Below are positions 20,287-36,553 of a stretch of DNA of 42,923 nucleotides, piece by piece; the first letter of the stretch is position 1; every line of letters starts with the position of its first letter. The DNA comes from Microbacteriaceae bacterium (GTDB taxonomy: Bacteria > Actinomycetota > Actinomycetes > Actinomycetales > Microbacteriaceae). The stretch is taken from positions 1 to 42,923 of the forward strand of contig CANCKM010000006.1 of NCBI GenBank assembly GCA_947378555.1. Reading direction: 5' to 3'. The translations under genes and the position numbers were made by a program. The notes below the pieces were generated by a model, which had not been told where the DNA came from, made no database searches, and saw nothing but the letters and a program-made list of their open reading frames with translations.

Positions 20287-20362
20287 GCCGACCTGGCGCA
20301 ATTGGCAGCGCACCGCACTTGTAATGCGGGGGTTAGGGGTTCAAGTCCCCTGGTCGGCTCCA
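20287..20362 (+). tRNA. tRNA-Thr (UGU)
   Basis: Acceptor GCCGACC pairs with GGTCGGC; D stem GCGC/GCGC; anticodon stem CCGCA/TGCGG with loop CTTGTAA giving anticodon TGT; T arm GGGG-TTCAAGT-CCCC. The discriminator is T and the terminal CCA is encoded (20360-20362). Confidence 0.95.
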
Positions 20363-33816: not shown

Positions 33817-34521
33817 ATGGCTGACCTAATCGACACCACAGAGATGTACCTCAGAACCATTTTGGAACTTGAAGAAGAAGGTCAGGTGCCGATGCGAGCC
33901 CGAATCTCGGAGCGCCTCGACCACTCTGGCCCAACCGTTTCTCAGACCATCGGTCGCATGGAGCGAGATGGATTAGTCGAACTCAGCAATGACCGACACC
34001 TCGAATTGACCGACCACGGGCGCAAGTTGGCAATTGGGGTAATGCGAAAGCACCGACTGGCCGAGCGTCTGCTGGCCGATGTGATTGGCCTCGAGTGGGA
34101 GTTTGTGCACGACGAAGCTTGTCGCTGGGAACACGTGATGAGCGAACAGGTTGAGCGCAAGATTCTTGGCCTGATTCAGAACCCGGATGTTTCACCATAC
34201 GGAAACCCGATCCCAGGCCTTGATGCCCTCGGTTTTCAAGGTAACACTGGTTTCAAGGACGGGGTCACATCAGTGACCGCGCTTGACGAAAAAATGTTGG
34301 ACGGGCGCGATTTCGTGCTTCGTCGCATCGGTGAGCCGCTACAGATGGATTCGAACCTGCTTTTGAGATTCAAATTTCTTGGGATACTGCCAGGCAGTTC
34401 AGTGACACTTTCACGCAGCGGGGAGGGGTGGCGCATCTGCGCTAGCTCGGCCGATCAGGGCCTTTTGCTTCGAAATTCCGATGCCATGCATCTTTTTGTT
34501 GAGTCGCCCTTAACCCACTGA
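33817..34521 (+). CDS. ideR: DtxR/IdeR-family metal-dependent transcription repressor
   Basis: 234 residues, close to mycobacterial IdeR throughout. The winged helix includes PMRARISERLDHSGPTVSQTIGRM (recognition helix) and GLVELSNDRHLELTDHG. Metal ligands of both sites are conserved: His79, Glu83 and His98 of the ancillary site; Met10, Cys102, Glu105 and His106 of the primary site. A C-terminal SH3-like domain follows (about 150-234). It probably represses iron-acquisition genes when Fe(II) is bound. AAAGGAGG precedes the ATG, a near-perfect ribosome binding site. A clear IdeR box is not seen in this window. Confidence 0.94.
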   Translation: MADLIDTTEMYLRTILELEEEGQVPMRARISERLDHSGPTVSQTIGRMERDGLVELSNDRHLELTDHGRKLAIGVMRKHRLAERLLADVIGLEWEFVHDEACRWEHVMSEQVERKILGLIQNPDVSPYGNPIPGLDALGFQGNTGFKDGVTSVTALDEKMLDGRDFVLRRIGEPLQMDSNLLLRFKFLGILPGSSVTLSRSGEGWRICASSADQGLLLRNSDAMHLFVESPLTH

Positions 34522-34536
34522 TTCGCTGGATTTCCG

Positions 34537-34564
34537 GGTTATAAACAGTCACCAAACTGTAACC
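34537..34564. repeat. Inverted repeat downstream of dtxR/ideR
   Basis: ACAGT (34545-34549) and ACTGT (34556-34560), with flanking GGTT (34537) and AACC (34561-34564), can form a bulged stem after the ideR stop. There is no T-tract, so a terminator is doubtful; it could be an operator for the NlpC/P60 promoter. Confidence 0.3.
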
Positions 34565-34614
34565 AAATTCACAGGTTGGTCTCAGCCTTAAGTGAATTAA
34601 CATACAACATCGGG

Positions 34615-34620
34615 TAAAGT
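34615..34620 (+). promoter_or_regulatory. Probable -10 box TAAAGT for the NlpC/P60 leader
   Basis: TAAAGT would start transcription at about 34627, exactly where the first hairpin of the structured leader begins. Confidence 0.5.
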
Positions 34621-34626
34621 GGAGAT

Positions 34627-34750
34627 GTTGCCTCGAAAGAACCTGTGGGGCAATCGAACTCGGATGGTTTCCTAGCCCGCAATCCGAGTTTTTAGAACTC
34701 ATAGTTTCGTTGCGGGAATTGGCTTGTCCAATGAAACTCGGAGGTTTAGT
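34627..34750 (+). ncRNA. Structured 5' leader (candidate riboswitch/expression switch) of the NlpC/P60 gene
   Basis: Visible pairings: hairpin A GTTGCCTC (34627-34634) with GGGGCAAT (34647-34654); hairpin B AACTCGGAT (34657-34665) with ATCCGAGTT (34682-34690), followed by T5; hairpin ATTGG/CCAAT (34718-34732); a 7-bp long-range match CCCGCAA (34676-34682) with TTGCGGG (34710-34716); and a 9-bp match TCCGAGTTT (34683-34691) with AAACTCGGA (34734-34742), which overlaps the GGAGG ribosome binding site (34740-34744). The last pairing and hairpin B use the same strand, so they exclude each other. Actinobacterial NlpC/P60 and Rpf genes are often controlled by the c-di-AMP (ydaO-type) riboswitch; GGGGCAATC and CAATCCGAG only loosely recall it, so identity is open. 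Confidence 0.6.
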
Positions 34751-35662
34751 TTGACGCAAAAAAGCAACGCAAGACACCGCGCTCAAGGTGAAGTCAAGGT
34801 TTTAGAGACTTTTGAGTTGCGCAGTCGCCGCTCGATTCGTGAGGCAGAACGGGCACGTCAGTCGCGCTCGGCAGACCGAGCCGAAAGAAAACTTGCCAGA
34901 GTGGCCAAAATTGATGGTCAACCGCTGGCCGTTCAGCAAATCACAAAATCTCAGGGCAAGTATGTCGTGCGCCCTCACGCAGCACCCAAGAAGGTAACCA
35001 AACGGGTCTTACGCGACCTAGTTGCAATGGGTTTTGCCTCCGGAATTTTTGCCACCGCTGCACTCCCGGCCTATGCGCTTTCGCCGGATGTCGTTTCAGC
35101 TGGCGGCTTCACAACTATCAGCAGCAAGCAGCTTGCCACCGATTATCAAGCCCAGAGCCTGACAATATCGGCAATCAATCAGGTCGAATTTGGTCGCGGT
35201 GACTATAAAGCCACCCCGCTTTCCGAAACCGATCGCCAGAACATCTTGAACGCCATCAAGCAGTACACCGGCCCGACGGCAAGCGACTTTATTGCCAACC
35301 CGCCTTACAGCAAGCTTGACCCAGCTGACGTTCTAAAGGTTGCAGCCAAATACGTTGGTACACCATACGTCTTCGGTGGCGAAAACCCAGGTGGTTTTGA
35401 CTGTTCCGGTTACGTTCGCTACGTCTACGCGCAGTTTGGAATCAACCTGCCACACTCGGTCATTGGCCAGTCGTTCTTTGGAATCAAAGTGAAGTTCGAA
35501 GATGCCATGCCGGGCGACATTGTTGTGCTCAATAACCTAAGTCACGATGGAATCTATGCCGGCAACGGAAACTTCTATCACGCACCGCGCCCCGGTGACG
35601 ATGTTAAGTTGGCCCCGATCTTCACCGATCAGGTTTACTTCATCAGACTGCAAACCAACTAG
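34751..35662 (+). CDS. Secreted NlpC/P60 peptidoglycan endopeptidase
   Basis: 303 residues. A long charged N-terminus (about 1-88, rich in Arg/Lys/Glu) precedes a hydrophobic export signal or anchor (VAMGFASGIFATAALPAYAL, about 91-110). The NlpC/P60 domain occupies about 195-303: catalytic Cys in GGFDCSGYVRYVYAQFG, His in NLSHDGIYAGNGNFYHA. Family members cut gamma-D-Glu-meso-DAP type bonds in peptidoglycan. I chose the TTG at 34751, because GGAGG lies 6 nt upstream; a TTG nine codons earlier lacks a site. The structured leader indicates control at the RNA level, expected for a dangerous wall hydrolase. Confidence 0.9.
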   Translation: MTQKSNARHRAQGEVKVLETFELRSRRSIREAERARQSRSADRAERKLARVAKIDGQPLAVQQITKSQGKYVVRPHAAPKKVTKRVLRDLVAMGFASGIFATAALPAYALSPDVVSAGGFTTISSKQLATDYQAQSLTISAINQVEFGRGDYKATPLSETDRQNILNAIKQYTGPTASDFIANPPYSKLDPADVLKVAAKYVGTPYVFGGENPGGFDCSGYVRYVYAQFGINLPHSVIGQSFFGIKVKFEDAMPGDIVVLNNLSHDGIYAGNGNFYHAPRPGDDVKLAPIFTDQVYFIRLQTN

Positions 35663-36481: not shown

Positions 36482-36553
36482 TGACCCCGAGAAGAATCGA
36501 ACTTCCGCACAAGGTTTAGGAAACCTCTGCTCTATCCACTGAGCTACGGGGCC
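36482..36553 (-). tRNA. tRNA-Arg (CCU)
   Basis: On the minus strand, acceptor GGCCCCG pairs with CGGGGTC (one G-U), D stem GCTC/GAGC, anticodon stem GAGGT/ACCTT with loop TTCCTAA giving CCT, T arm GAAG-TTCGATT-CTTC. The discriminator is A; CCA is not encoded. A TAGACT -10 box lies upstream at 36566-36571 (minus strand). The 3' end is 1 bp from the HNH stop. Confidence 0.93.

Follow-up and report, generated by a model that had tools for sequence, protein, structure and literature searches.

A candidate double-pseudoknot, riboswitch-like RNA in the leaders of wall hydrolase genes of Microbacteriaceae

An NlpC/P60 hydrolase gene in the window (the whole stretch of DNA analysed here, 42,923 nucleotides from a Microbacteriaceae bacterium) is preceded by a leader that raises two questions, namely whether it folds into a conserved RNA and, if so, how such an RNA would act on the gene. 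The first-pass annotation had described a switch in which one strand pairs either with an upstream strand, in a terminator-like form, or with the ribosome binding site, with an additional long-range pseudoknot. The present comparisons indicate that the leader is almost certainly a real, conserved structured RNA. Our preferred reading, to which we assign a probability of roughly 0.6, is that of a double-pseudoknot cis-regulatory RNA, an orphan of riboswitch-like kind, that gates translation of wall hydrolase genes in Microbacteriaceae. The elements of the leader in the window are the following.

34615-34620, + strand: −10-like element TAAAGT, from sequence
34627-34637 / 34644-34654, + strand: P1 hairpin with AACC in its loop, from covariation in 19 leaders
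34656-34665 / 34682-34691, + strand: P2 hairpin, GAACUCGGAU with AUCCGAGUUU, its loop containing the 5′ strands of P5 and P3
34666-34671, + strand: P5 5′ strand GGUUUC, abutting the 3′ side of the P2 5′ strand
34676-34681, + strand: P3 5′ strand CCCGCA, immediately 5′ of the P2 3′ strand
34695-34707, + strand: P2a mini-hairpin GAAC-N5-GUUU, near-invariant
34711-34716, + strand: P3 3′ strand UGCGGG (pseudoknot)
34718-34732, + strand: P4 hairpin AUUGG/CCAAU, variable in sequence, from sequence; the family counterpart covaries
34733-34738, + strand: P5 3′ strand GAAACU, ending 1-2 nt 5′ of the ribosome site
34740-34744, + strand: Shine-Dalgarno element GGAGG, from sequence, near-invariant among relatives
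34751-35662, + strand: NlpC/P60 hydrolase gene with a TTG start at 34751 (Pfam PF00877, E 3.5e-19)

The leader and its relatives in the genus

The strands on which the earlier switch was built, AACTCGGA (34657-34664), TCCGAGTTT (34683-34691) and AAACTCGGA (34734-34742), are present as described, and direct reading of the window gives a T5 run at 34689-34693. In 2000 dinucleotide shuffles of 34615-34760, an 8-mer with two separate perfect complements arises once and a single 8-mer inverted repeat 296 times, so that an inverted repeat alone is unremarkable. The folding energy of the leader is mildly low (z −1.43, 17 of 200 shuffles being equally or more stable), as calculated with a tool that leaves pseudoknots unscored. 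The comparative evidence for a structured leader, given below, is far stronger than this evidence from the single sequence. The gene 5′ of the hydrolase gene encodes a DtxR/IdeR-type repressor. An inverted repeat, CAACATC/GATGTTG, spans the −10-like element at 34605-34630 of the window, and is either a possible operator or due to chance.

Relatives of the window protein (E≤1e-10) occur in 63 of the 67 genus genomes, and a search of genome contigs with the protein query P0001 returned no relatives. The upstream regions in the genus were sorted by eye into full leaders, a diverged group B with a longer P0, leaders with P1 only or with P1 and a short helix, and short leaders reaching about 45-55 nt past the −10. 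The leaders of L025, L038, L062 and L070 retain P1 without the P2/P3 core, L062 and L070 showing in addition a short P0-like helix (by eye), and these P1-keeping leaders are apparent stages in the erosion of the RNA. R1, a covariance model of the full-form leader of the genus, detects this form at E below 1e-20 in 20 of the 67 genomes, 19 of which are its training set. In 19 of the 20 cases the match lies directly 5′ of the relative of the window protein, and the remaining match, in G044, ends at the contig end, at the start codon. A weak additional match occurs at G000:C3:14084 (E 0.006). Since the full form is absent from most genus genomes, it has probably been lost repeatedly, and the shortened or bare leaders of the other genomes imply that the leader RNA is dispensable.

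Nineteen full leaders, chosen by eye, were aligned on sequence only (alignment A1), leaving out L048 (a near copy of L047), L077 (the same genome, on a second contig), group B and the short leaders. Over P1, P2, P3 and two short elements, 92.5% of the cells are paired, against 77.0% after shuffling, and the covariation score is 0.526 against 0.232, a value reached in 0 of 500 shuffles and far above that of all six slid controls, the shuffle control being one that ignores the relatedness of the rows. P1 shows two-sided changes in 9 of 9 pairs, with 92.2% of cells paired over the 19 leaders. P2, which is the top helix of an unguided helix search and has 10 bp there, shows them in 8 of 8 counted pairs (columns 43-50/70-77; 97.1% paired). 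For the pseudoknot helix P3 they are found in 4 of 7 pairs, or 4 of 6 for its core; taken alone, this helix is 97.4% paired, against 83.6% after shuffling, and its covariation is reached in 0 of 500 shuffles. RNAalifold, which cannot show P2 and P3 at once, selects P1 and P3 unaided, with two-sided changes in 14 of 17 pairs. P2a is paired in 94.4% of cells with no two-sided changes; being near-invariant, it is conserved, its pairing unproven. A TAAA[AC]T-type element, a pattern that excludes the window's own TAAAGT form, stands 5′ of 13 of the 18 A1 leaders scanned.

The claims of the first-pass annotation can be read against this alignment. Position 34627, at which the first conserved hairpin begins, is close to the expected start of transcription, as had been proposed, and the long-range pairing of CCCGCAA (34676-34682) with TTGCGGG (34710-34716) is borne out, P3 covarying in the genus and in the family. 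Of the three pairings in that annotation, P2 and the pseudoknot P3 thus stand, and the one between the P2 3′ strand and the ribosome site finds no support. This alternative fold, said to hide the ribosome site, is 75.9% paired over the 19 leaders, against 75.8% after shuffling, with a covariation of 0.245 against 0.245; its slid controls are lower (25-61%), and a species' own strand pairs with its ribosome site no better than strands swapped between species. The terminator-like fold fared no better, a T5 run following P2 in 6 of the 19 genus rows and the U-run being unconserved.

Two further pairings were considered and rejected. A pairing of AAACC in the P1 loop with GGUUU in the P2 loop, or with AGGUUU past the ribosome site, was dropped by eye, since it is broken in several rows that keep the loop. 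For the conserved GUUUCG (columns 92-98) and the bases before the ribosome site, own pairs have no advantage over swapped ones.

The family-wide RNA and its genes

A second alignment, A3, was made from 18 of 26 loci of the family, selected by eye; it leaves out L079-L083, L093 and L096, which have no such leader at the chosen start (for L082 and L083 none was found), and L100, a near copy. The unguided helix search on A3 returns P2, P5, P4, P1 and, lower, P3, and the counterpart of P4 shows two-sided changes in 4 of 4 pairs. The loop of P4, CCUAG (A3 columns 130-149), is conserved in most rows despite the varying stem. R2, a covariance model built from A3 without P3 and P5, was used for aligning. 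At E≤3e-6 it matches in at least 123 of 249 family genomes and at least 48 of 85 genera, with the best 12 candidates per genome scored, and weak relatives may be missed. At E≤0.05 the matches amount to at least 137 of the 249 genomes and at least 54 of the 85 genera, the 137 including 14 genomes with a best E above 1e-5, some of which are surely chance.

Around related proteins, R2 matches in 38 of 80 named loci at E≤1.3e-7; these loci overlap the family genomes searched and are not an independent sample. The titles of the matched loci name Cryobacterium, Leifsonia, Agromyces, Rathayibacter, Curtobacterium, Frigoribacterium, Mycetocola and others, or read "Microbacteriaceae bacterium". For two genera and the first 40 members of the family the lineage was checked, and the remaining named relatives are ones that we take to belong to Microbacteriaceae. 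Across the order, with the best 10 candidates per genome scored, at least 16 of 297 genomes match at E≤0.001, 14 of them in the family; the two matches outside it (4.4e-4 and 9.5e-4) have no hydrolase-like ORF downstream by eye and are chance-like. The weak match in L162 (E 6e-4) likewise has no hydrolase-like ORF downstream, by eye.

Two larger alignments were prepared with R2. A4 has 53 rows, or 44 after a 97% identity filter, and A6 has 102 leaders, or 92 after a 95% identity filter, drawn from 100 loci (80 of 80 of L245-L324, 15 of 20 of L143-L162 and 5 of L084-L104). Because both were aligned to R2, pairs of P1, P2 and P4 are favoured in their counts; P3 and P5 are not in the model. In an APC-corrected G-test on the 92 non-redundant rows of A6, the top 12 of 9180 column pairs all fall in P1, P2, P4 or P5, with P5 at ranks 4, 12 and 17, P3 at 16 and 23, and a non-helix pair at rank 13. 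P3 alone is 94.6% paired in A6, against 89.1% after shuffling (0 of 500). Few unpaired bases are near-invariant in the family (44 rows), fewer than would be expected of a classic aptamer.

P5, the second pseudoknot helix, was recognised from the leaders of other genera, where the bases preceding GGAGG are complementary to the 5′ portion of the P2 loop. It ranks second in the unguided search on A3; in that alignment its pairing reaches 99.1%, and 4 of its 6 pairs show two-sided changes. Alone it is 98.4% paired in A6, against 89.0% after shuffling (0 of 500). In A1, taken as 6 pairs, it is 84.8% paired against 77.6% after shuffling (0 of 500), its covariation being reached in 2 of 500 shuffles; a slide of −1 still gives 68.8%, and taken as 8 pairs it is only 75.0% paired. 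Compensated variants are seen there, GGUCGC/GCGAUU and UUUGUA/UACAAA taking the place of GGUUUC/GAAACU. P5 is not among the 14 helices that the unguided search finds in A1, and this search lists the loop strand of P5 as paired with GGAGGUU itself. The latter pairing is mostly G-U and is 90.2% paired against 87.1% after shuffling (14 of 500; covariation 61 of 500); in A6 the best register of the loop strand with the ribosome site gives 83.9%. The support for P5 is thus strong across the family and moderate within the genus, and the P2-loop strand might itself also cover the ribosome site.

We consider it very likely that the variant in the window is homologous to the family-wide RNA. By eye the two have the same order of P1, P2, loop strands, P2 closure, P3, P4, P5 and ribosome site, with matching linkers; in both, the pseudoknot strands abut P2, P5 ends 1-2 nt before GGAGG, and the gene is related. 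Over its full length R2 aligns to 34616-34752 of the window, the leader (E 0.008 in 301 bases, 5.7 bits, filters off). In the family search with R2 none of the 5 genus genomes included matched, and in 29 other genus loci, some of them short-leadered, there was no in-register full-length match; the match with the lowest E, 4.9e-4 in L050, is out of register. R1, run against the 249 family genomes, found genus members only. The joining of the two forms is the weakest link of the argument, as it rests mainly on architecture and is weak by sequence.

Nearly all of the genes downstream code for wall hydrolases. Each of the 102 A6 matches has an ORF of 150 aa or more beginning −14 to +40 nt from the RNA end, and Pfam assigns NlpC/P60 to 90 of these genes, M23 to 9 and CHAP to 2. 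Their first in-frame start is TTG 90 times, GTG 12 times and never ATG, in a tally by a script that could not pick an internal ATG. A crude tally of the starts of 24 window ORFs gives 6 ATG, 2 GTG, 1 TTG and 15 undecided. In G068, G105, G108, G125, G179 and G263, one copy of the RNA precedes an NlpC/P60-type gene and another an M23 or CHAP gene (some by eye). The downstream hydrolases have a common N-terminal segment, which suggests that the association with M23 and CHAP may partly reflect duplicated genes that exchanged their catalytic domain.

Mode of action and competing explanations

In the mechanism that we favour, folding of the P2/P3 core would present the P2-loop strand for the formation of P5, which would place a rigid double pseudoknot directly beside the ribosome site and so lower initiation. 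The P2 loop would be fully used by two strands, of which that of P3 has its partner beyond P2 and that of P5 in the bases immediately preceding the ribosome site, and from this two-strand use we infer that the folded core and ribosome access are coupled. A small molecule other than c-di-AMP, bound to the folded core, could hold P5 in place and prevent initiation of translation or, less probably, permit it. In a second state the same loop strand may pair with the ribosome site itself, the signal molecule perhaps shifting the balance. P5 ends just before GGAGG and covaries, and the structure may be coupled to expression there. Both where P5 lies and the lack of a conserved U-run speak for translation rather than transcription, as do the first in-frame starts of the downstream genes (TTG in 90, GTG in 12, ATG in none), and we regard action at translation as likely. 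Sensing of a small molecule is, in our estimate, an even chance.

We have also considered that a regulatory protein might grip the pseudoknot and block the ribosome. The conserved loops of P1 (AACC) and P4 (CCUAG) could be sites for such a protein, and the scarcity of invariant unpaired bases in the core points the same way; a protein-binding leader nevertheless appears unlikely. Quite unlikely is a ligand-free structure, that is, a thermometer, or a fixed brake or stabiliser that keeps the lytic enzyme low. It would agree with the first in-frame starts, TTG or GTG in 102 of 102 genes, as for a gene kept low, and with the existence of relatives without the RNA; against it, known RNA thermometers are, to our knowledge, less elaborate than two covarying pseudoknots.

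The first-pass annotation had left a choice between a divergent ydaO (c-di-AMP) riboswitch and a new class. The scan of window positions 34400-34900 against the 4227 models of Rfam gave no match even at E≤10, and RF00379 has none in the window leader at that threshold, in line with the annotation's remark that the ydaO consensus is not clearly met. In sets of 20, 20, 12 and 18 other loci Rfam likewise gave no leader match; what it found outside the leaders were tRNAs and matches below threshold, of which GcvB scored best (28.6 of 42 bits). In 50 other loci RF00379 had no match at E≤5, 3 or 2. Elsewhere in the window lie an msiK RNA (RF01747, 18342-18401, − strand, 63.9 bits) and two tRNA genes (20287-20359, + strand; 36482-36553, − strand).

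A diverged ydaO riboswitch that kept its gene and changed its ligand would fit the distribution of RF00379 outside the family, where it occurs in 16 of 20 chosen actinobacterial NlpC/P60 loci, in 15 upstream of the matched gene and in 1 (L209) downstream; the family RNA thus occupies the place that the c-di-AMP riboswitch has elsewhere. A sub-threshold match to RF00379 (25.4 bits) in one small family genome (L325, G146:C1:41156-41267) points in the same direction. Against such descent, no match to RF00379 reaches the cut-off of 38 bits in any of the 67 genus genomes or of 100 family genomes, 3 of which belong to the genus; of 14 control genomes, 2 are positive (B. subtilis and C. glutamicum). 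The diadenylate cyclase domain PF02457 is likewise found in 0 of the 67 and 0 of the 100 genomes (84 genera), with 11 of 14 controls positive, so that the family seems, from its genomes, to lack c-di-AMP synthesis. The helices also differ from the ydaO plan. A c-di-AMP riboswitch is excluded as far as the genomes searched show, and descent from one is very improbable. Hardly any weight can be given to the switch first proposed, in which the P2 3′ strand alternates, with a terminator form, between the P2 5′ strand and the ribosome site. In the window the two helices have 10 bp each (−13.0 and −12.8 kcal/mol), near-equal energies that make a species-specific role of the alternative pairing possible; against the switch stand the shuffle-level pairing, the lack of a swap effect and the sparse T5 runs among the relatives.

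Known leader RNAs and the place of this one

In riboswitches of the preQ1 and SAM-II types a pseudoknot strand adjoins or covers the ribosome site, and control is translational. The present RNA differs from these in sending two strands (P3 and P5) from one hairpin loop, in having P1 and P4 in addition, and in matching no Rfam model. The "224 RNAs" survey of 2017 reportedly describes an NLPC-P60 RNA motif in actinobacteria, named for the same gene class. If this motif is part of Rfam 15, it belongs to the 4227 models that gave no match; the present RNA might otherwise be identical with it.

In C. glutamicum a c-di-AMP riboswitch (ydaO/yuaA, RF00379) precedes nlpC, likewise a gene of an NlpC/P60 wall peptidase, and represses it, probably at translation, according to PMC9960051. 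The leader described here would, by analogy, work like this translational riboswitch without being related to it. The leader switch of rpfB in M. tuberculosis (PMC6009663) also stands over a gene for a wall-lytic enzyme with a TTG start; unlike the present leader, it is a transcription terminator/antiterminator, and it is reported to be confined to some mycobacteria. A literature search, made mostly without subscription papers, gave no description of this RNA by title or abstract opening, and a term look-up in PMC11109978 and PMC2864571 found no mention of NlpC or Microbacteriaceae. The kind of element, a structured cis-regulatory leader, is known; the RNA family, its architecture and its ligand appear not to have been described.

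We propose tentatively, at somewhat less than even odds, that the leader represents a new riboswitch class for a cell-envelope or growth signal, one that replaces c-di-AMP riboswitches at wall-hydrolase genes in Microbacteriaceae. Lytic wall enzymes need tight limits, and an RNA gate at NlpC/P60, M23 and CHAP hydrolases in at least 48 genera would amount to a family-wide control point. As sister families carry c-di-AMP riboswitches on the same gene class, the question of what replaced c-di-AMP in the control of the wall becomes testable.
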